64,000 nucleotides of DNA from a bacterium endosymbiont of Escarpia laminata. GTDB lineage: Bacteria; Pseudomonadota; Gammaproteobacteria; Chromatiales; Chromatiaceae. Below are positions 21,199-35,583 of this stretch, piece after piece. Position numbers and translations under genes: made by a program. The notes below the pieces were generated by a model. The model was not told the DNA's origin, searched no databases, and saw only the letters and a list, made by a program, of their open reading frames with translations. The stretch is taken from positions 1 to 64,000 of the forward strand of contig QGON01000063.1 in the NCBI GenBank assembly GCA_003660235.1, written 5' to 3'. Numbering within the stretch: the stretch's first letter is position 1; the number at the start of each line of letters is the position of its first letter.

Positions 21199-21254
21199 GT
21201 TTGTGTATTTCCAGTCAGTCGTCCTCCCGATAAATATTCCTGGAGAAATTAACA

Positions 21255-22706
21255 ATGGCTAGAGTTTTGGGCTTGTCAGCCAGTTTACGTGGTGCAAGAC
21301 ATGGCCATGGCGTGGATCATCTTTGCGGGGAGTTGGCCCAACTGGGAAGCAGAGACGATCTTGATGAATATCTCACCAGGGAAACGAGAATTCTACATGA
21401 GGAGTATATAACAGCAGGTTTGAGCGAAGGAAAACCCTTTGATGAGATATACAAGGAGCTGCAGAAAGGGTCTGGAAAGCATGGTTTGAGCAACTCCGAG
21501 GCTGCACTGGTAGCGGGGCTTTGGGGTGCCATGAACAATGGGGCAGAAATCGATTACTGTAGCCTGCAGTCATTTTTTCCCGCATCCGGGAACAATCGGA
21601 ATCTCGATCAGTTGAAACAGCATGTATTGCAAGCAGATGCGATACTGCTTGCTGGCCCCGTCTATTTTGGCGACAGAAGCTCCTTGGCTCAAGAGTTCAT
21701 CGACTTTGTCTATTCTGATGAAGAGATCCGGTCTCATATCATGAACAAGGTGTATGCAGGGATCGCAGTTGGAGCAAAGAGAAATGGGGGGCAGGAGACG
21801 ACGCTGGTATATCAATTGATCGACATGATTAATCTCAACATGCTTGCCGTCGGTAATGGAGCAACATCGACGGCTCAATATGGTGGCACAGTTGTAGCGG
21901 GTGATGTTGGTACGGCCGCGACTGACTCATATGGATTGAATACCTCAATCGATACCGGAGTTCGGGTTTCGCATGTCGCATCTCTGCTTCAGATGGTTGG
22001 CGATGACTATAAAAGTGAGCCAGTAAGAATAGCCGTTGTTTTGTTGCAGGATATCAAGAGTCAAAAAGGGCTTGAGCTGGTAAATGAGTATTGTTTGAAG
22101 GTTTCCAGCGCAACGGAAGGTGCAAAGTTTGACGTATTGGATTTTTCCTCAGAATATTCAATGAGATGCATTGCATGCGATGTTTGTCCGGAAGAGTTTG
22201 GCGAACCAGACGAATACAGATGTATTATCAAGAACAGAAGGGACCTGTTTGTAAAGTTTCACCAGCAGTTAATCAACTATGACGCGATTATTGTCGCAGC
22301 ATATAGCCCTTGTGACAGGCATGAGATTTCTTCCGTTTACCAGCGGTTTATGGAGCGGACCAGATATCTCAGACGAGACAACTATGCTATAGGCGACCTT
22401 CTTATTACTCCGCTGGTTTTTTCCGAGCTCAACTCTAATCAAAACCTGCACATACGAATGACAACGTCCATGATTCGCCATCATTCAATCATGCATCACC
22501 CACTTATCGGAATCTTCAAAGATGGCAAGGTACTGGACTGGGAGTTTATGATCAGACAAGGAATGATATATGTAGATAACGTCAAACGTCTGCACAGCTC
22601 CAAGAAGCGATCCGGGAATTCATATCGCAAGGACTGGGAATACAATCCGCTTGGATATGTTATTAGCGCAAAGAAAAAGCATTTCGACAATATTTCTGGA
22701 AAATAG
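21255..22706 (+). CDS. Tandem flavodoxin-fold flavoprotein with Fe-S cysteine motif
   Basis: 483 residues built from two flavodoxin/FMN-reductase-like domains. Domain 1 (about 1-250) begins RVLGLSASLRG (FMN-phosphate loop), has a roughly 60-residue insertion, LLAGPVYFGDRSSLAQEFID and GAKRNGGQETT. Domain 2 (about 256-480) begins VRIAVVLLQDIKSQKG and carries C305-x2-C308-x2-C311 plus C323, the compact cysteine pattern of Fe-S flavoproteins. A two-domain protein of this layout is not one I can name. Strong ribosome-binding site (GGAG, nine bases before the ATG). First gene of the AT-rich Dlt-like block, 24 bases before the microprotein gene; may make, reduce or protect the group that block transfers. 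Substrate unknown. Confidence 0.7.
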   Translation: MARVLGLSASLRGARHGHGVDHLCGELAQLGSRDDLDEYLTRETRILHEEYITAGLSEGKPFDEIYKELQKGSGKHGLSNSEAALVAGLWGAMNNGAEIDYCSLQSFFPASGNNRNLDQLKQHVLQADAILLAGPVYFGDRSSLAQEFIDFVYSDEEIRSHIMNKVYAGIAVGAKRNGGQETTLVYQLIDMINLNMLAVGNGATSTAQYGGTVVAGDVGTAATDSYGLNTSIDTGVRVSHVASLLQMVGDDYKSEPVRIAVVLLQDIKSQKGLELVNEYCLKVSSATEGAKFDVLDFSSEYSMRCIACDVCPEEFGEPDEYRCIIKNRRDLFVKFHQQLINYDAIIVAAYSPCDRHEISSVYQRFMERTRYLRRDNYAIGDLLITPLVFSELNSNQNLHIRMTTSMIRHHSIMHHPLIGIFKDGKVLDWEFMIRQGMIYVDNVKRLHSSKKRSGNSYRKDWEYNPLGYVISAKKKHFDNISGK

Positions 22707-22730
22707 CAAGATAATTGCAGGGTGTAAGAA

Positions 22731-22850
22731 ATGCGTGAAGTATTCGTCTCAGTCGTGCAGTTCTTGTTTTGGATGGGCCTATATACCGCGATTTTTTTCA
22801 CCATGTTCAAGTCGGTCGACTTGAGTGCTTTTCGTTATGTCGGGTTTTGA
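22731..22850 (+). CDS. DltX-like one-TM microprotein with C-terminal FxYxxF acyl-shuttle motif
   Basis: 39 residues. Start ATG at 22731 with AGGGTG six bases upstream. Layout: short N-terminus (MREVF), one hydrophobic helix (about 4-26, VFVSVVQFLFWMGLYTAIFFT), then a short tail ending exactly in FRYVGF. In the Dlt pathway the microprotein DltX has one TM helix and a C-terminal FxYxxF hexapeptide outside the membrane; its Tyr accepts the acyl group from the MBOAT and passes it to a serine on DltD. Here Tyr36 is the equivalent. The next four genes encode a DltD-like protein, a carrier, an MBOAT and a ligase, and that MBOAT does not itself end in the motif. Function is inferred from motif and context. 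Confidence 0.8.
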   Translation: MREVFVSVVQFLFWMGLYTAIFFTMFKSVDLSAFRYVGF

Positions 22851-22871
22851 CGAATTCCTCTGCTGCCTGCG

Positions 22872-23936
22872 ATGGATATAGATCTCTCTGATCTGCTGAA
22901 GCCAAGATTGCTGCCTCTCGTGCTGGCAAGTATAAGCTTTGCTTTCTTGCTGTATATGGTGGGAGACTATTTCAGATTTCTTGTTTTGAAGCAGTTTACT
23001 CTCCAGCAACACTTTGTGGATGGGTCAACGTATGTTTCACATATAGCAACAAGATACACTCCAACTGAAAAGTTGACGATTGTCATGCTGGGAGGGTCTG
23101 TCACGAGAGAAGGGACTCTGCCGGATGGCAAAGTGGAGCAGATGTGGCATGAGGCTTACGGTATTGAAATCGACTTCATCAACCTGGGCAGCAGCAGTCA
23201 GACAATTTTTGAAAGCCTTGCTCTGCTTGCAACGATGGACACGCCGAAGAAATTCATTGTCGTACAACAATTTTCCTACAAGAAGCTGGACAGCGGCCCT
23301 GATTTGCTGAGGCAGGAGTACCTGTCACCCAGAATGACATACCTAGATTACTCCAGCCTAGAATCATACTTGTCGCATTCTGATCATTTCCTTCGAACCT
23401 TCATGCCCGACCTTTTGCTATATGCAGGCCCTATCAGACAGTATCTAGGAGAAAGGGAATGCAGCTTGATTGCATTGCTGTCAATGGATGGACGGATAAG
23501 ATGCTTCCGAAACAAGAAGGTTAAGAGGAGATATTATGCGGACAAGGAATCCATGACGTTTGACAAGAAGAAATCATATGTCCTGGACATGCAAAGAGAT
23601 ATTATTCCAAATTACGAAAAAAATGCAGGATTTAACATTGTAGTAATGAAAGAAATGTCCCGCCTCGTCAAGGAGCGAGGCGGCAAGCTGGTGTTCGCCA
23701 TCTACCCATTTGACGATGCCGAAAATGAGTTGAATAAGGCAATAACAGGAACAGATCGATACAGGGAGTTGGCAGGTGAGTTGGCTGGAAACATTTTTTT
23801 TGATATTCAGCAGGCAGGAAGCTTCTCCGATAAGGATTTTTATGACTCACAACACATGACATCATCGGGAAAAACAAGATTTTCTCGGCTGTTGATCGAG
23901 GATATCCACGCCATTGTCTCAGGAGAAAACCAGTGA
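22872..23936 (+). CDS. Membrane-anchored SGNH/DltD-like acyl transferase
   Basis: 354 residues. One N-terminal membrane helix (about 12-30, LLPLVLASISFAFLLYMVG) and a large extracytoplasmic domain with an SGNH-type catalytic set: Ser76 in VMLGGSVTREG, the Gly/Asn region INLGSSSQ (104-109), and Asp325/His328 in FYDSQHMTSSGK. DltD has the same design and takes the acyl group from DltX on its serine before handing it to the polymer. 21 bases after the microprotein stop; its own stop overlaps the GTG of the carrier gene. The acceptor is probably the O-polysaccharide built by the flanking genes, by inference. A plain esterase is the main alternative. Confidence 0.75.
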   Translation: MDIDLSDLLKPRLLPLVLASISFAFLLYMVGDYFRFLVLKQFTLQQHFVDGSTYVSHIATRYTPTEKLTIVMLGGSVTREGTLPDGKVEQMWHEAYGIEIDFINLGSSSQTIFESLALLATMDTPKKFIVVQQFSYKKLDSGPDLLRQEYLSPRMTYLDYSSLESYLSHSDHFLRTFMPDLLLYAGPIRQYLGERECSLIALLSMDGRIRCFRNKKVKRRYYADKESMTFDKKKSYVLDMQRDIIPNYEKNAGFNIVVMKEMSRLVKERGGKLVFAIYPFDDAENELNKAITGTDRYRELAGELAGNIFFDIQQAGSFSDKDFYDSQHMTSSGKTRFSRLLIEDIHAIVSGENQ

Positions 23937-24175
23937 ACAGAGAAAGTATTTACCTTAAAGTACAGGCATTCCTGATTGATGAGTTTGGATTGCCGGAAAA
24001 TCTTTCCGGGAGTGATGCGCTTTTTTCAAGCGGCATGCTCGACAGCATGGATGTGCTCTCACTGCTGATTTTTTTTGACAAGGAATTTGGCGTAAGTTTT
24101 TCTCCCTTTGAAGTGGGTCTTGAACAGCTCGATACTGTAGAAATGATTGCTGCCGAGATTGCCGGAAAGAAATAA
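23933..24175 (+). CDS. Acyl carrier protein (DltC-like)
   Basis: 80 residues, four-helix carrier. Ser38 in GMLDSMDVLSLL is the 4'-phosphopantetheine site; DltC has a very similar GLLDSM context. Acidic, as expected. GTG start overlaps the stop of the DltD-like gene (GTGA) and its own stop overlaps the MBOAT start (TAATGG), so three genes are translationally coupled. Would carry the activated acyl group as a thioester from the ligase at 25830 to the MBOAT. No phosphopantetheinyl transferase is in the window. Confidence 0.88.
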   Translation: MNRESIYLKVQAFLIDEFGLPENLSGSDALFSSGMLDSMDVLSLLIFFDKEFGVSFSPFEVGLEQLDTVEMIAAEIAGKK

Positions 24176-25782
24176 TGGCATCAGGTGGCAGAGTCATATT
24201 AGTTTGCTTGCTGGTTGCAGCTGCATTTGCGATTTTATCTCTTCAGAATGCTCCTCATTTAGATTTCAAAACATATCGAGGCCAAGTCGGGCTGGATTAC
24301 TCCCAAGAGTCCATGCCAATATCTGCCAGGAACATTACCATTGAAGTCCAGCCCGGAGATGCGCAGAGGATCTCTGCAGTAGATCTTCAGGTGCATGGTG
24401 ATGCCCTCTTTCATGTTGACAGCAAGTCGGTTGAACCCTCATGCAGTGCGGAAGGAGCGCTCAATAGATGCAGGATCATCCTCTTTCATGGGAAGGAGAT
24501 CCATAACATTCACATTGATGCAAAAGATAACAAAAAAGAGATAAGACTCGAAAACCTGACTTTCTCTGTGCTGAAGGAATCAAGGTTGACGGCTGCATCC
24601 TACGTCGATCTGTTCTATATGTGGACGAGTCTGGCGGTACTGATCCCGGTATTATGGTTGGCCCATAAGAACAAATCGCTGAGTCAATGGATGCTGGTCA
24701 TTTTTTCTTCTGGAATTATTTTCTATATTCAGCCACTGTTTTCAATCATACTCATTGGCTACCTTGTCACAAGCCATTTCATCGGGACAAGGTTTTCAAA
24801 AGGTCGCGGGAAGATTCTGTGGCTCCTTTTCGCTGGCTCAATCTTCATATTGATATTTTTTAAATATATAGGAGAGGACATCATAGGGATATTCCTGGAT
24901 CCCGGGGATTTTGGTCTGGTTCTTCCCCTAGGGCTGTCATACTTTCTGATAAGAGCGATAGATACGCAGGTGAACTGGTACAGGGGGCTGCAATGTGATG
25001 TGAGTATCAGGGAGTATCTCAGCTACATCATGTTTCCGGCGACTCTGCCAGCAGGCCCGATTGATACGCTGTCAAATTTCAGGTCGGGACGATCAGAGAA
25101 GATATCCAAGGATGATGTATTGTATGGTGTAACTCGTATCATCGTGGGGCTTTTCAAAAAGATCGTCATTGCAGACCATCTCATTTTTCGACCGCTTTAT
25201 GGTAGCGACGGCCTTTTTCACGAGATAGCGAGCTTGCTGGAAATTGAAGCCGGACACGAAATAATCATCCTTCTGGTTGGAAGTTTTTTGTTTGTTTATT
25301 TTGACTTTTCTGCGTATTCGGATATTGCTATCGGGCTTGGCAGATGTATGGGCTACCGGGTTCCGGAAAACTTCAACCTGCCCATCATTGCAAATTCTAT
25401 CAGAGATTACTGGAGGAGATGGCACATGAGCCTGACGGGCTGGTGCATGAGGAACATATATTTCCCGCTTCTCATAATGACAAGACACGTTGCGATTCCT
25501 GCCTATATGGTTATGCTGGCGGTTGGAATGTGGCACTCGTTTACCGCTTCCTGGTTCTTGTGGGCCGTGCATCATGGAACAGCGATTGCCGTTCAGGGAA
25601 AGATCGAGGAAAAAACAAAGGGATACCGGATGAAGGGAGTTCATCCATTACTCAAGCGGGCCGTTATGGTCGGAATTGTTATCGTGTGGGTTTCAGCCGG
25701 TCATGCATTTGCCCAGATCCATGATCCATCGGTAGCCCTCGATCTCTATCTGGCATATTGGAAATCATTTTTTCTGCTTTGA
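24175..25782 (+). CDS. MBOAT O-acyltransferase (DltB/AlgI type) with extra N-terminal periplasmic domain
   Basis: 535 residues. The MBOAT core spans about 145-530: YFDFSAYSDIAIGLGRCMGY, ENFNLP, DYWRRWHMSLTGW with H417, and H453 in GMWHS, the position of the catalytic His in this family. Before it, an N-terminal helix (about 6-23) and a roughly 120-residue, largely hydrophilic segment (25-140) with beta-rich pattern and two cysteines (C90, C99) that would lie outside the membrane; DltB and AlgI lack this. Moves an acyl group from the carrier thioester across the membrane. The C-terminus (WKSFFLL) lacks an FxYxxF motif, consistent with a separate microprotein. Coupled to the carrier gene. Confidence 0.85.
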   Translation: MASGGRVILVCLLVAAAFAILSLQNAPHLDFKTYRGQVGLDYSQESMPISARNITIEVQPGDAQRISAVDLQVHGDALFHVDSKSVEPSCSAEGALNRCRIILFHGKEIHNIHIDAKDNKKEIRLENLTFSVLKESRLTAASYVDLFYMWTSLAVLIPVLWLAHKNKSLSQWMLVIFSSGIIFYIQPLFSIILIGYLVTSHFIGTRFSKGRGKILWLLFAGSIFILIFFKYIGEDIIGIFLDPGDFGLVLPLGLSYFLIRAIDTQVNWYRGLQCDVSIREYLSYIMFPATLPAGPIDTLSNFRSGRSEKISKDDVLYGVTRIIVGLFKKIVIADHLIFRPLYGSDGLFHEIASLLEIEAGHEIIILLVGSFLFVYFDFSAYSDIAIGLGRCMGYRVPENFNLPIIANSIRDYWRRWHMSLTGWCMRNIYFPLLIMTRHVAIPAYMVMLAVGMWHSFTASWFLWAVHHGTAIAVQGKIEEKTKGYRMKGVHPLLKRAVMVGIVIVWVSAGHAFAQIHDPSVALDLYLAYWKSFFLL

Positions 25783-25829
25783 ACTAAAGTGGTGATGGTT
25801 TGATGTAATACACCACATGACGGAATGCC

Positions 25830-27293
25830 ATGTATATCAATCAACAGTGCAATATTCTTGGAGAAAAGGGAGAGCTGCCCTTTATTTCTAACGAGTCAGA
25901 GAGTATCTCGTTTTCCGGTTTCGTGGAGGCGGTCTCGCAGCGGGCGGGAGAGTTTCAAAGTTCTGGATGTAGAGAGAATGAGTGCATCATGCTCGGTTGC
26001 GCGGACGGCCTGGATTACTTTGTCTCGCTGGTTGCAATCTGGTCTATTGGCTGTGTGGTCGTCCCCTTTGATGAAACTGGAGATGATGAGCAGTTTGATT
26101 TTGTCGTTGGCATAACCAAACCTCGTCTGGTAGCTGGTAGAACTACGGGCGATATTCTTCTTATGAGTGACGATCAAGAGTATCGAGCGACAAAATATGA
26201 AAGCAAGATTGCCGCCATCCTCTTTACGAGTGGATCTTCTGGTGTGCGGAAAGGTGTTTTGTTGTCTGGAAATTCACTTTTTGGAAATGCTTTGTCGACA
26301 CTGAAGATTCTGAACTATCAGTCTACCGATCATCTATTTGTAAACACCTCATACCATTTTACAAGTGCAATATGTCACTTTCTTGCTGCATTCTTCTGTG
26401 CAGGAAGGCTGACAATCGTCCATAATAAGTGCTTCCCAGCAAATCTGGTAAAGGCTGTTTGCGAGTCAGGTGCAAACGCCTTTGGCGGGGCGCCTATTCA
26501 GCTGTTGTGGCTTGTTGAAGGCTTGAGCGAATCGGAAGGTTTGCGTTGGGTGATGACCTCTGGAGACGATCTTCCCGAATCAACGCAACAGCGGTTGAAT
26601 AAAAAATTTCCAGCTACCGACCTGTTTGTCTTTTATGGCTTAACTGAAGCAGCAGGCAGATTCTGTGTGCGCTTGCCGGATGATCATTCTGCCGGTTACT
26701 GCTCGGTTGGAAAGCCCATCCATGGCATGTCGGTAAAAATTGTAGCAGATGACGGGGCTGAACTGCTTGCCCGAGAGGTTGGTGAGGTAGTCGTTGGCGG
26801 GGAATTCCTGATGAATGGGTATCTTGGCCTCGACAGGGCTGATACTGTTCTGTCGACCGGCTTCAGGTCAGGAGATAGTGGTTATCTGGATGACAGGGGC
26901 AATCTCTATCTACTTGGCCGTCTCGATGATGTGTTCAAGGTTGCGGGGCGAAAAGTAAGTGGTTTGAGAATACGTGACTCCGTTCTTGAGACAGGGATGG
27001 TAAAAGACGCCGTTGTGATACCTTTCCGGGACCCGGTGGCTGGAGTCGTTCCGGGATTAGTATATGCCACCCGAGATAATGTCGATTTCAATAAAGGAGC
27101 ATTTCTGCGTAGCTTGAGAGGTCGGTTGCCGACCAACCATGTGCCTCGTAAACTGATCTGTGTCGATGATATTGAAAGAACCGGATCGGGAAAGATCATC
27201 AGGCAAAAACTGAATGACAGGCTTGCCGAGTTCAAGATCAATCAGCGCAAGGACCGCAGCTATATGGACGAGGCAGAGTCTGGCGAAGAATGA
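25830..27293 (+). CDS. AMP-forming acyl ligase (DltA-like, ANL superfamily)
   Basis: 487 residues. Complete adenylation motifs: P-loop LFTSGSSGVRKG (131-142), YGLTEA (269-274), FRSGDSGYLDDRG with the ribose-binding Asp349, GR at 363, hinge VAGRKVS, and catalytic Lys455 in RTGSGKI. Activates a carboxylic acid with ATP and loads the carrier at 23933. In amino-acid activators such as DltA, an Asp in the A4 region (FDLS) binds the amino group; the matching segment here reads SYHFTSAI without that Asp, so the substrate is probably not an amino acid. 47 bases after the MBOAT; last gene of the block, convergent with the formyltransferase-like gene. Confidence 0.85.
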   Translation: MYINQQCNILGEKGELPFISNESESISFSGFVEAVSQRAGEFQSSGCRENECIMLGCADGLDYFVSLVAIWSIGCVVVPFDETGDDEQFDFVVGITKPRLVAGRTTGDILLMSDDQEYRATKYESKIAAILFTSGSSGVRKGVLLSGNSLFGNALSTLKILNYQSTDHLFVNTSYHFTSAICHFLAAFFCAGRLTIVHNKCFPANLVKAVCESGANAFGGAPIQLLWLVEGLSESEGLRWVMTSGDDLPESTQQRLNKKFPATDLFVFYGLTEAAGRFCVRLPDDHSAGYCSVGKPIHGMSVKIVADDGAELLAREVGEVVVGGEFLMNGYLGLDRADTVLSTGFRSGDSGYLDDRGNLYLLGRLDDVFKVAGRKVSGLRIRDSVLETGMVKDAVVIPFRDPVAGVVPGLVYATRDNVDFNKGAFLRSLRGRLPTNHVPRKLICVDDIERTGSGKIIRQKLNDRLAEFKINQRKDRSYMDEAESGEE

Positions 27294-27999: not shown

Positions 28000-28208
28000 G
28001 GTGGTGATCTTCCTTTGTTGCTGGTCGATAGAGACTTTTGCTGTGTGCGCTCCAGTTCGGTGTTGCAATATCGAACAACAATGGCATCAGAAGGGATGGC
28101 GTTTGACGTCAGATGAATGCTGAACGGTACGCCTAGCCTGCAGTCGATTTCATAAAAGGCGTGTTGCAGGTTGATCATCGACTCCAGAGGAATAAGAAAG
28201 AGGATCAT
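27945..28208 (-). CDS. Small ORF coupled to the methyltransferase gene, possible gene remnant
   Basis: 87 codons. Its ATG overlaps the stop of the upstream methyltransferase gene (ATGA), a sign of real translation coupling. The first half looks protein-like (YEIDCRLGVPFSIHLTSN, then SDAIVVRYCN); the second half is low quality (SLSTSNKGRSPPWLISLL) and overlaps the start of the formyltransferase-like gene by 55 bases. This fits the 5' end of a longer gene that lost its remainder by deletion. Family not recognised with confidence. Confidence 0.35.
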   Translation of the reverse strand: MILFLIPLESMINLQHAFYEIDCRLGVPFSIHLTSNAIPSDAIVVRYCNTELERTQQKSLSTSNKGRSPPWLISLLSPTAKHAIPGG

Positions 28209-28903
28209 GGCCTAGCTATCCAGCAGAGCAGGTGGCTGCGCAGAAACGGGAACACGTTGAATACCCTATAGAGCATGGGGTGGATAGCGGTAACCCTGCG
28301 GGCGATCGGTGGCGCCAGGGTCACTCTGTGGGTCTCAATGCGGCCTTTGGGGAACAGCTCCCCAATGCGCTTCAGCCCAACAGCGCGCACATCAGGGTTG
28401 GCTGGATTGTTGTAGGTGAAGTCGTACCAGATAATGCCCCCGCCTGGCTTTACCATTCGCCAGGCCGTTGCGGCCAGTCTCTCCTGAAAATCGTCGTCCA
28501 GGATGGAGGTGAAGACCGTTGATAGCAGAATCGCATCGAATGCCTCGAAGCGATCGATCAGGGAGGCGTCCCCAGGTAGTATCTCTACTGCAGCGGGCAG
28601 CAACTTGCGTGCTTCATCCACTCGCTCGGGAAGCAGTTCATTGGCGACTAAGTTCTCCGGTCTGAAGCCAAGTTTGAGCAGCTGGATCAGGTTGCTGCCA
28701 TTACCGCAGCCAATCTCCAGTAGTTTCCTGTCAGCGAGGGGCTGCAGATAGGGATGGAGTATCCTGCGTATCAGAACCCGCTCACGCTCCTGCTGTGTGA
28801 GATAGACCGATGGGTGCAACGGGTCGTACAACGCTTGTACACCCGATTCCCGACGGCGTGCGTAGCGTTCACTGATGGCATTGGTTTCCTGCTCCCTGCT
28901 CAT
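28205..28903 (-). CDS. Class I SAM-dependent methyltransferase
   Basis: 232 residues. SAM-binding motif I LLEIGCGNGSNLIQLLKLG (about 61-79), acidic loop after ENLVANEL, motif LPGDASLIDRFEAFDAILLST and the post-motif MVKPGGGIIWYDFTYN. The hydrophobic C-terminus (LYRVFNVFPFLRSHLLCWIA) suggests membrane contact. Similar methyltransferases in O-antigen loci methylate or cap the chain; the substrate here is unknown. Overlaps the start of the GT4 gene's stop region by four bases (28900-28903), so it is in the same operon. Confidence 0.85.
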   Translation of the reverse strand: MSREQETNAISERYARRRESGVQALYDPLHPSVYLTQQERERVLIRRILHPYLQPLADRKLLEIGCGNGSNLIQLLKLGFRPENLVANELLPERVDEARKLLPAAVEILPGDASLIDRFEAFDAILLSTVFTSILDDDFQERLAATAWRMVKPGGGIIWYDFTYNNPANPDVRAVGLKRIGELFPKGRIETHRVTLAPPIARRVTAIHPMLYRVFNVFPFLRSHLLCWIARP

Positions 28904-33048: not shown

Positions 33049-34197
33049 TTACTGGGCGTTTCGTGAAACCAGTCCAAGGTGTTTGAAGCGCCTGATCATT
33101 CGGGTCTTGAACTCAAACAGCCAAGCGTTGGAAGGATAGTCTAAATAGGTGCGGTTGGGCTGCGCCATGATCTGGTCAAACGCTTCATCACTGATCCCCA
33201 GCTTCTTGGCCACAAATGCCTTGTCTTCCAGCAACTCTTTTTCCGGATGGGGTGGGCGTTTCATCTCATCGAGCGCGGCTTCACGTTCCATCTGTCCGGA
33301 TACGATGAGGCTCGACAGATGGGCGCGTCGTTTGTCGAAGCCAAATTTATGGGGTAGGTAGTAAGCCTGAAAGAAACGGGTGAATATGGATTCGTAGTGT
33401 TTGCCCCCATAATCACGCCAGCCAAACTCATCCTGGATCAGTTTCTTGGCCTCCTGCTTACTGTAGGGCATGTCGTTGAGCAGGCGCACTGTCCGCATCT
33501 TTTTGACGAACGGGTAGAGTAGATAGCGTTGGAAGAACGATAGAGTGGGGTACTGTTTCAGGCGCATGGTGCCGAATTGCTTCTGTACTGCTTTCAGGTG
33601 ACGCCGATCCCCGGCATTATAGCCCCATGCGCTGGGCAGGATCGACTCCGTGGCAAGGTTGCCGCCACTGATGATGTTTTTGATGCCGTGGGATGCGGCC
33701 AGATGGTGGAGCACAGCAAGAAATGCGTGATCTTGGGGTATGTCGCAATTGGCCAGCGACGCCTTGAAGAAGGCGAGTTGAAGATCGCGCATTTCGTCCC
33801 AGTTAACGACAAAGGTATAGAGGTCAATATCAAGTTTTTTGACGATGTTTTCGATATTGCTGACCGCCAGTTCGGAATTCCACCCAGTATCGCAGTGAAC
33901 CGCCAGTGGCCGAAGGCCAAATTCCTTCACCTTGTAGGCCAGGTAGGAGCTGTCTACCCCACCGCTGATGCCTATCACGCAGTCGTACTCCTTACCTTTT
34001 CCTTCAGCCTTGATCTGATCTACAGTTGCCTGGAGCTGCTGATTGCCTTGGGTCGTGCCCGTCAGCTTCAGCTTAGCTGCGGCAGTAGCATCGAAGGTTT
34101 GGCAGTGGCTGCATACTCCCTGACTGTCGAAGGTGATCTCCGGGTCGGATGTATCCATGATGCAACGGGTACAAATCTGGTAGCTGTTCTGAGTCAT
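33049..34197 (-). CDS. N-acetyl sugar amidotransferase (WbpG family)
   Basis: 382 residues. N-terminal cysteine pairs (CTRC ... CSHC) suggest a zinc site; the ATP-pyrophosphatase loop GISGGVDSSYLAYKVKEFG is intact. WbpG uses ammonia from HisH2, channelled through HisF2, to convert an acetamido group of a UDP-2,3-diacetamido uronic acid into an acetamidino group. Both partner genes lie directly upstream. Matches the P. aeruginosa O5 (B-band) set in content and neighbours. Cytosolic. Confidence 0.93.
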   Translation of the reverse strand: MTQNSYQICTRCIMDTSDPEITFDSQGVCSHCQTFDATAAAKLKLTGTTQGNQQLQATVDQIKAEGKGKEYDCVIGISGGVDSSYLAYKVKEFGLRPLAVHCDTGWNSELAVSNIENIVKKLDIDLYTFVVNWDEMRDLQLAFFKASLANCDIPQDHAFLAVLHHLAASHGIKNIISGGNLATESILPSAWGYNAGDRRHLKAVQKQFGTMRLKQYPTLSFFQRYLLYPFVKKMRTVRLLNDMPYSKQEAKKLIQDEFGWRDYGGKHYESIFTRFFQAYYLPHKFGFDKRRAHLSSLIVSGQMEREAALDEMKRPPHPEKELLEDKAFVAKKLGISDEAFDQIMAQPNRTYLDYPSNAWLFEFKTRMIRRFKHLGLVSRNAQ

Positions 34198-34214
34198 GTG
34201 AATTTACATTCGCG

Positions 34215-34976
34215 CTAGGTAAGCGCCTTTTCAAGTTCGTTGATTGATGGGTAACTGATGAGTACGGCACGGTGTTTGCCGTGAAATACGAACATGCTGC
34301 CGGCGGCCACCGCGTCTGCATGGCCTTGGGTGATTGCCTCGCTGAAGTGTTCGATTCGGGCTGCACCACCCAGGGCAATTACCGGGATCTCCACACTGGA
34401 GCTGATCCCGGCCAGGGTGTCTAGGTCGTAGCCGGAGAAGGTGCCATCCCGGTCAATGGAGTTGACGAGCAGTTCTCCTGCGCCCAGGTCTTCCATCTTA
34501 CGGGCGGCATCGAGCGGGGTATAACCGCTCTTTTTTGTGCCGCCATAATAGTATGCCCCAGGCTTGCCAAACAGTCCTTTTTTTACATCGATAGTGACGG
34601 TGATACTTTGATTGCCATAGCGGCTTGATGCCTCTCTGACCAGTTTGGGGTTGGAGAAGGCTGCGGTGTTCAGGCTTACCTTCTCCACGCCTAAACGGAA
34701 CAGCTGGCCGATCTGTTCAATGTTACTCACGCCGCCGCCATAGGACAGAGGCATGAAGCACTCACTGGCAATTTCGGATATCAGTTGGAAGTTAGGTGGG
34801 CGCTGTTTACGGGATGCGTCGATATCAAGCAGTATCAGCTCGTCAACCTCTTTGTCGTTAAATATACGCACTGTATTGACAGGGTCGCCCACATAGGTGG
34901 GGGATTTGAAACGCACCGTCTTGACAAGGCCACTGCCCTGCAGCAGCAGGCAGGGTATAACGCGGGTTCTAAGCAT
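34215..34976 (-). CDS. HisF2, cyclase-like subunit of the LPS amidotransferase
   Basis: 253 residues, (beta-alpha)8 barrel of the HisF family. Start at 34976 (MLRTRVIPCLLL). In true HisF the first catalytic Asp follows IPCL (IPCLDV); here it is Leu (VIPCLLLQGSG), while the second Asp (VTIDVKKGLF) remains. Loss of the first Asp suggests it no longer makes imidazole glycerol phosphate and serves as the ammonia channel for WbpG. Located between hisH2 and wbpG, overlapping hisH2 by eight bases; not with histidine genes. Confidence 0.92.
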   Translation of the reverse strand: MLRTRVIPCLLLQGSGLVKTVRFKSPTYVGDPVNTVRIFNDKEVDELILLDIDASRKQRPPNFQLISEIASECFMPLSYGGGVSNIEQIGQLFRLGVEKVSLNTAAFSNPKLVREASSRYGNQSITVTIDVKKGLFGKPGAYYYGGTKKSGYTPLDAARKMEDLGAGELLVNSIDRDGTFSGYDLDTLAGISSSVEIPVIALGGAARIEHFSEAITQGHADAVAAGSMFVFHGKHRAVLISYPSINELEKALT

Positions 34977-35583
34977 TGCCGAATCGCTCTGCAAAATTGC
35001 GCATCAGGATAATGCCGAATTTATGGCTCTTTTCAGGATGAAACTGCAGGCCGGCCAAGTTGTCTCGCTCGATGCCGGAAGTGAATTCCATGCCGTAAGG
35101 TGTGTGGCACAAGCGGTCTACGGGACTATCACAGACCATGCGGTAGGAGTGTACAAAATAGAATCTTGCCGGATCGGGTAGATCCTGAAACAAGACGCTG
35201 GGCTTAAGTGGTTGAGCAATATTCCAACCCATGTGAGGAACCTTGAGCGGGGCTGCTTTGATGCGAACTGTGGTGGCATCAAACCAGCCAAGGCCCGGTA
35301 GCTTTCCCTCCTCGCTTCCCTGTGTGAGCAACTGGGCACCCAGACAGATGCCGAGTATAGGTTTGCCCTGTTCGTTCGCAGCCTGGTTAAGTGGTTCGAT
35401 CAGGTTCAGGTTATTGAGGTGCTCCATGCCGTGGTCAAAGGAGCCGACGCCCGGCAGTATCAACTTGTCGGCGGAGAGGATATCTTCCGCTCGACTGGAG
35501 CTTTTTGCTTCTGCCCCCACCTTCTTGAGCATATTGAGTATGGAGCCAAGATTGCCCATGCCATACTCGACGACGACGATCAT
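34969..35583 (-). CDS. HisH2, glutamine amidotransferase subunit
   Basis: 204 residues, class I glutaminase. Nucleophile Cys in ILGICLGAQLLTQGS, catalytic His/Glu in LQFHPEKSHKFG, oxyanion region LPGVGSFDHGMEHL. Releases ammonia from glutamine and passes it to HisF2 and then WbpG. Its position just upstream of hisF2 and wbpG, with wzx four bases ahead, places it in O-polysaccharide synthesis and not in histidine synthesis. Confidence 0.93.
   Translation of the reverse strand: MIVVVEYGMGNLGSILNMLKKVGAEAKSSSRAEDILSADKLILPGVGSFDHGMEHLNNLNLIEPLNQAANEQGKPILGICLGAQLLTQGSEEGKLPGLGWFDATTVRIKAAPLKVPHMGWNIAQPLKPSVLFQDLPDPARFYFVHSYRMVCDSPVDRLCHTPYGMEFTSGIERDNLAGLQFHPEKSHKFGIILMRNFAERFGNA

Follow-up and report, generated by a model that had tools for sequence, protein, structure and literature searches.

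We analysed a window of 64,000 nt of DNA (contig QGON01000063.1, from an endosymbiont of Escarpia laminata; all coordinates are window positions) and propose, with a probability of about 0.72 and on the basis of sequence comparison, that six of its genes encode a system for acylating the cell envelope, which depends on a carrier protein and has its Tyr shuttle split from the MBOAT. The genes encode, in this order, a flavoprotein, a microprotein, an SGNH protein, an acyl carrier protein (ACP), an MBOAT and an AMP-forming ligase (Table 1). A preliminary description of this DNA had placed five consecutive genes, from microprotein to ligase, at 22731-27293, and all five open reading frames (ORFs) were found there, as were the stop/start overlaps among the middle three (4 bases between SGNH and ACP genes, 1 base between ACP and MBOAT genes). 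The unit was nevertheless incomplete, as the flavoprotein gene, separated from the microprotein gene by 24 bases, had been overlooked as its sixth member.

According to Anderson et al. 2025 (PMC12148441), who give an acyl-Tyr mechanism for DltX and PatA, MBOAT-SGNH pathways pass the acyl group to a Tyr within a hexapeptide at a protein C-terminus, which lies on DltX in Dlt and is MBOAT-fused elsewhere. The Tyr shuttle appears to be split off from the cassette MBOAT, as in Dlt, because the cassette MBOATs are without the hexapeptide-bearing C-terminal stretch that their relatives carry: the fused motif is absent in 5/5 of them, whereas the stretch is present in 76 of the 77 MBOAT relatives fetched, and the only motif-less relative, L003, is itself a cassette member. 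Scoring of the 77 relatives gave 68 that end strictly in F.Y..F and 5 that do so in a relaxed form, with L060 and L074 ending in NTYFRF and L040 broken by ambiguous bases (Ns), its motif lying in the next ORF; in L056 the scoring picked the second MBOAT of the locus, and the matched one ends strictly in F.Y..F. A class survey likewise revealed the fused motif in all 30 MBOAT loci examined (of 67 matches). The second catalytic His is followed by 81-94 residues in the five cassette MBOATs, 69 in two DltB and 137-201 in 36 fused MBOATs, while H417 and H454 themselves are invariant across 38 sequences. At the other end of the protein, P251 is preceded by 243-262 residues in the cassette MBOATs, as against 116-122 in the two DltB and 95-177 in the 36 fused ones; in a structure model, the extra N-terminal domain shows strands at 48-115, at a predicted local distance difference test (pLDDT) score under 50.

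The hexapeptide was found at the end of the microprotein. Four such proteins, each of 37-44 residues with a single hydrophobic stretch, end in FRYVGF, FRYAGF, FRYAGF and FRYAAF, with codons that differ synonymously (n = 4 loci). F34, R35, Y36, G38 and F39 are invariant in the three that were aligned, and the fourth retains F, R, Y and the final F, such that the C-terminal motif claimed earlier is kept by all four homologues seen. The microprotein gene adjoins the flavoprotein gene in 4/4 loci and the SGNH gene in 3/4, on varying strands. One could argue that a 39-aa frame with a putative translation start and no family match is a chance ORF, the MBOAT using another acceptor or none; we consider this highly improbable, as all four loci encode such a peptide with the same ending beside the flavoprotein gene, in the company of MBOATs that are without the motif. 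An F.Y..F ending occurs in 1 of the 548 window ORFs of 25-70 aa, namely the microprotein itself, and at a background rate of 2/6297 small ORFs in 839,111 bases of L003-L079. Motif rarity together with recurrence in 4/4 loci led us to reject the chance ORF.

The six genes appear to form one system, chiefly because the same gene content recurs in four arrangements. Besides the window, locus L086 (genome G547) carries all six, with the microprotein gene on the minus strand and then flavoprotein-ACP-MBOAT-SGNH-ligase, and so does L088 (G222), with MBOAT-ligase on the minus strand and flavoprotein-microprotein-SGNH-ACP on the plus strand. In L098 (G587), microprotein-flavoprotein-ACP lie on the minus and SGNH-MBOAT on the plus strand, and the ligase gene is on a different contig of the same genome. 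A fifth locus, L003 (Gammaproteobacteria metagenome-assembled genome KW1-S15_96, the one named locus obtained from a genome collection), starts within the SGNH gene and continues with ACP-MBOAT-ligase; this cut makes it uninformative on microprotein and flavoprotein. The recurrence in shuffled orders supports the earlier reading of the parts as one system, and the loci read contained neither microprotein homologues devoid of the C-terminal motif nor SGNH and MBOAT genes belonging to unrelated pathways.

Genome searches were performed with single parts. A ligase profile built from two sequences (threshold E up to 1e-60) matched 4/369 class genomes, namely the endosymbiont itself, G547, G222 and G489. 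A flavoprotein profile matched 3/398 genomes of the phylum (own, G587, G695), 2/48 in the class of G587 (G587, G695), 2/210 in the endosymbiont's own order (own, G135), 1/8 and 1/1 in the orders to which G547 and G222 belong (themselves), and 1/303 in another class draw (G222 itself). With the SGNH protein as sole query, 1/194 family genomes was recovered, the endosymbiont's own, this being a weak query given that cassette SGNHs are mutually 19-26% identical. The stretches read in G489 (L087), G695 (L099) and G135 (L100) hold a relative of one part alone, that of L087 being a ligase, and these three were left out of the cassette counts. In L099:9070-10593, the flavoprotein homologue is followed by an enolase-superfamily-like gene (by eye); in L100:7880-11014, it adjoins a ligase scoring above the cut-off of a malonyl-CoA synthase model (672.5 against 558 bits), and no MBOAT was recognised close by. 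Plasmid and phage collections searched at E 1e-5 yielded no flavoprotein relatives, and viral contigs gave 2 distant MBOAT matches.

The residues singled out earlier (S76, D325 and H328 in the SGNH protein, S38 in the ACP) proved conserved. When the window SGNH protein was aligned with 32 SGNH ORFs from MBOAT loci, G74, S76 and H328 showed no variation, and D325 is invariant in 4/4 cassette SGNHs; S38 is invariant in the four ACPs aligned, and DS is conserved in 5/5 cassette loci, all of which have an ACP gene. In 64 of the 77 loci, an SGNH profile iterated without positional input hit an ORF <=250 bases from the MBOAT, and the cassette carries the SGNH partner protein expected of MBOAT-SGNH shuttle systems. 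A Pfam scan of the window proteins gave no family match for the microprotein or the SGNH protein, and the SGNH profile found nothing among the PDB sequences. Among the 50 matches listed in a fold comparison of the SGNH protein, DltD, PatB and AlgJ/AlgX did not appear, which excludes nothing; its structure model is unreliable at residues 135-248. The flavoprotein has an N-terminal FMN-reductase domain and a second part that is flavodoxin-like by eye, with C-x2-C-x2-C-x11-C, and a homologue is present in 4/4 microprotein-bearing loci at a mean pairwise identity of 48%.

The ligases point to a likely cargo other than alanine. All five cassette ligases, including the unlinked one of G587, have the motif HFTS, in which Thr replaces the Asp of DltA. 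In DltA, this Asp binds D-alanine through its amino group. Asp occupies the Thr178-equivalent position in two annotated DltA and in 8 of the 11 other ligases in the loci; the three without it (L069, L078 and L011) are all clostridial. Because of the Thr in the cassette ligases, we argue that they probably load an acid other than an alpha-amino acid, although the replacement does not in itself identify it. L069 and L078 combine a fused-motif MBOAT with an Asp-less ligase (NHAS and NHSY), and these are the best ligase relatives outside cassettes (211 and 192 bits).

Sequence scores further suggest that the cassette works like Dlt without being of the Dlt family, because no part from the window reaches the Dlt cut-offs tested and Thr is present in 5/5 ligases. 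In line with the claim of a complete Dlt-like set, the architecture is that of Dlt, and by none of the curated scores tested is the cassette a member of the Dlt family. For the DltB equivalog TIGR04091 (cut-off 375 bits), MBOATs scored 130.6 (window), 123.2 (L003), 120.7 (L086), 145.5 (L088) and 115.7 (L098); the window ligase reached 101.5 of the 559.85 bits of DltA TIGR01734; and for DltC TIGR01688 (52.35 bits) the ACPs scored 18.2 (window), 25.8 (L086), 22.4 (L088) and 24.7 (L098). DltD (PF04914) gave no match with the window SGNH protein at E up to 0.1, nor with those of L086, L088 and L098 at E up to 10, while the L. curvatus control gave 418.9 bits. Likewise, all four microproteins matched no Pfam family at E up to 10, with 72.6 bits for the L. 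curvatus DltX control (PF12459, cut-off 25); NCBIfam was uninformative here, the control being similarly unmatched. One rival reading is a true Dlt operon, gained by horizontal transfer, that would D-alanylate lipopolysaccharide or O-antigen, as has been suggested for dlt genes in Dickeya and other Gram-negative bacteria. Such an operon would share the five functions and have a comparable small protein with the motif, would fit the under-cut-off ACP scores against DltC models, and has a precedent in Dickeya and Pectobacterium, from which dlt genes have been described (PMC3544676, PMC5541007). The family scores with their controls, the ligase site, the additional flavoprotein and the extra MBOAT domain nonetheless make this very unlikely, and we rejected it on the first two.

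In a phylogenetic tree, the five cassette MBOATs form one clade (support 100/100) and join the two DltB against the 36 fused MBOATs with 65/83, via long branches. This joining does not decide between common descent of the split arrangements of cassette MBOAT and DltB and an independent origin of the split.

From the parts, their conserved residues, the absence of a fused motif, the separate one-transmembrane motif peptide and the recurring set, all read directly from sequence, we infer each transfer step, the cargo class, the role of the flavoprotein and the acceptor. The ligase would adenylate a carboxylic acid without an alpha-amino group and load it onto S38 of the ACP, the flavoprotein probably making or reducing this acid or a precursor in the cytoplasm. 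The MBOAT would then take the acyl thioester on the cytoplasmic side and, via H417/H454, acylate the microprotein at Tyr36 on the periplasmic face. The microprotein tail may subsequently swing to the SGNH protein and hand the acyl group to S76. The SGNH protein would finally attach it to a hydroxyl group of a glycan in the periplasm, for which the O-polysaccharide of the locus is the most likely candidate.

Several observations weigh against this proposal. Homology between microprotein and DltX was undetected beyond size, one hydrophobic stretch and motif, and the SGNH protein resembles two DltD poorly (profile-profile probability 1.7; iterated profile 12.0 and 5.5 bits). The ligase gene of L098 is unlinked to the other five genes, flavoprotein homologues occur outside cassettes in the stretches read (L099 and L100), and no sugar-biosynthesis neighbour was recognised in L098, where one neighbour was scanned, others were judged by eye and the contig ends beside the cassette. 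Carrier genes are also found near several fused-motif MBOATs, so a carrier alone needs no separate microprotein.

Choosing the O-antigen as acceptor depends on the neighbouring genes, which make it likely in two loci (window and L086), possible in L088 and unsupported in L098. The window has genes for a Wzy_C protein, two DegT aminotransferases, an initiating sugar transferase, an oxidoreductase, a Wzx-type protein, a HisF-type protein and further sugar/aminosugar functions, and L086 has a PF02719 protein with Wzz and Wzy matches slightly under cut-off. Near L088 lie genes for a UDP-GlcNAc 2-epimerase and a lipid A acyltransferase. These neighbours argue against another periplasmic glycan or lipid as the acceptor, which would alter the proposed relay at its last step alone; that option is consistent with L098, where a nucleotide cyclase gene flanks the cassette and no sugar gene was recognised, and with the best NCBIfam model of all four ACPs scanned, an ornithine-lipid synthesis carrier (40-49 bits, far under the cut-off of 130), and we judge it possible yet the less probable. 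The earlier claim of a Dlt-like relay acylating the O-polysaccharide with a non-alanine cargo is thus supported for the split motif and for the cargo, which is likely not alanine (Thr in 5/5 ligases), while its acceptor is suggested by neighbours that look O-antigen-like in 2/4 microprotein-bearing loci. Elsewhere in the window, at 33049-35583, a HisF-type gene (PF00977) stands with genes that appear HisH- and WbpG-like, as in the uronic acid amidation of some O-antigens, and a seemingly similar pair lies in the vicinity of the ligase relative in L087.

The block had also been described as AT-rich and flanked by O-antigen genes on opposite strands, and the genes at the two flanks are indeed oriented oppositely to each other. 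Over ~6 kb, AT content in the window peaks at the cassette: its GC content is 0.461 versus 0.568 in the remainder, and the lowest-GC stretch of 6039 bases (21200-27238, GC 0.459) nearly coincides with the six genes. The contrast is confined to the window, the values for cassette and surroundings being 0.505/0.505 in L086, 0.559/0.559 in L098 and 0.330/0.366 in L088. An empty insertion site was sought through the methyltransferase gene at 28205-28903 on one flank; within the genus, the best match to it has 36% identity, and for this reason no comparable empty site was obtained.

Table 1. Parts of the six-gene cassette in the window.
Feature	Position	Strand	Evidence
Flavoprotein, tandem flavodoxin-type, 483 aa	21255..22706	+	PF03358 52.4 bits, cut-off 24; second domain by eye
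Microprotein, 39 aa, with a single hydrophobic stretch and FRYVGF at its C-terminus; putative acyl shuttle via Tyr36	22731..22850	+	No Pfam match
Hexapeptide FRYVGF codons	22830..22847 (Tyr36 = 22836-22838)	+	Sequence; FRY[AV][GA]F in 4/4 microproteins
Putative SGNH acyltransferase, membrane-anchored, 354 aa, S76 / D325 / H328	22872..23936	+	
Acyl carrier protein, 80 aa, phosphopantetheine serine S38	23933..24175	+	PF00550 18.6 bits, slightly under cut-off 20.8
DltB-like MBOAT, 535 aa, no C-terminal shuttle motif, H417 and H454	24175..25782	+	PF03062 67.9 bits, cut-off 27
MBOAT N-terminal extra domain (residues 26-139), probably periplasmic, after first helix	24250..24591	+	
AMP-forming acyl-ACP ligase, 487 aa; Thr178 (26361-26363) at DltA Asp position	25830..27293	+	PF00501 143.4 bits, cut-off 29.9

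Should the acceptor be the O-antigen, a surface ester dependent on the six genes is predicted. The compactness of the system would allow its cargo to be searched for through a simple ligase assay. More speculatively, the cassette may represent a separate envelope acylation class, in which flavoprotein, ligase and carrier make an unusual non-amino acyl group that a shuttle split independently of Dlt delivers to O-antigen; this would imply a modification of the cell surface that glycan structures have so far not shown. A literature search, whose coverage left out most subscription papers, gave no account of such a cassette that we recognised.

Compared with known systems, the cassette resembles Dlt in that a one-transmembrane peptide with C-terminal F.Y..F is encoded apart from the MBOAT, which is DltB-type without the extra C-terminal stretch; the annotated L. 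curvatus DltX (49 aa, ending FIYNEF) has the same build as the cassette microproteins. The primary paper on the DltX shuttle is reportedly that of Schultz et al. 2023. In the Limosilactobacillus oris plasmid dlt operon (L107:1542-1900), dltX is unannotated, and a DltX-like frame runs into the annotated ligase start. Unlike Dlt, the Gram-positive D-alanine system that acts on teichoic acid and from which such a relay is best known, the cassette sits in a Gram-negative polysaccharide locus and adds a flavoprotein and an MBOAT N-terminal domain. Its SGNH profile is less close to two DltD than to the partners of other MBOATs. Dlt-type chemistry in Gram-negatives is not new, since some of them have dlt genes (PMC3544676, PMC5541007).

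With PatAB and AlgI-type O-acetyltransferases the cassette shares the MBOAT and SGNH pair and the hexapeptide pattern, its SGNH profile matching the partners of fused-motif MBOATs; it differs in that its motif is separate, whereas theirs is MBOAT-fused, and in the presence of ACP and ligase, the donor of PatA being acetyl-CoA (PMC12148441). Clostridial loci (L019, L059, L063, L068 and L070) likewise bring MBOAT, ACP and ligase genes together, but with a fused motif and a ligase that has the DltA-type Asp, and by sequence they seem to be a third arrangement of carrier plus fused shuttle. The same arrangement was seen in L036, and in L043 ACP and ligase lie ~4 kb off. Weak ACP-profile matches (17.8-21.8 bits) were noted immediately upstream of fused-motif MBOATs in Bacteroidales L005, L010, L012, L014, L017, L027 and L032 and in Pseudomonadota L064, and an annotated acyl carrier protein (L090:7857-8108) lies ~1.3 kb downstream of an MBOAT gene on Sinorhizobium meliloti pSymB. 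The idea that a carrier-bound donor requires a separate microprotein is unsupported, carrier genes being present near fused-motif MBOATs as well, and it is therefore the separate microprotein that distinguishes the cassette.

With its carrier and microprotein, its Gram-negative host and a ligase unlike DltA, the cassette implies that D-alanylation is not the only process with a split shuttle. The Discussion of PMC12148441 says that MBOAT-SGNH pathways besides Dlt lack a carrier protein and a DltX-like microprotein, and the carrier genes near fused-motif MBOATs suggest that the carrier part of that statement is likely too narrow also. As the cassette has such a microprotein, it is best filed among the MBOAT-SGNH acyl-Tyr shuttle systems, as a candidate new variant beyond those that this Discussion covers.

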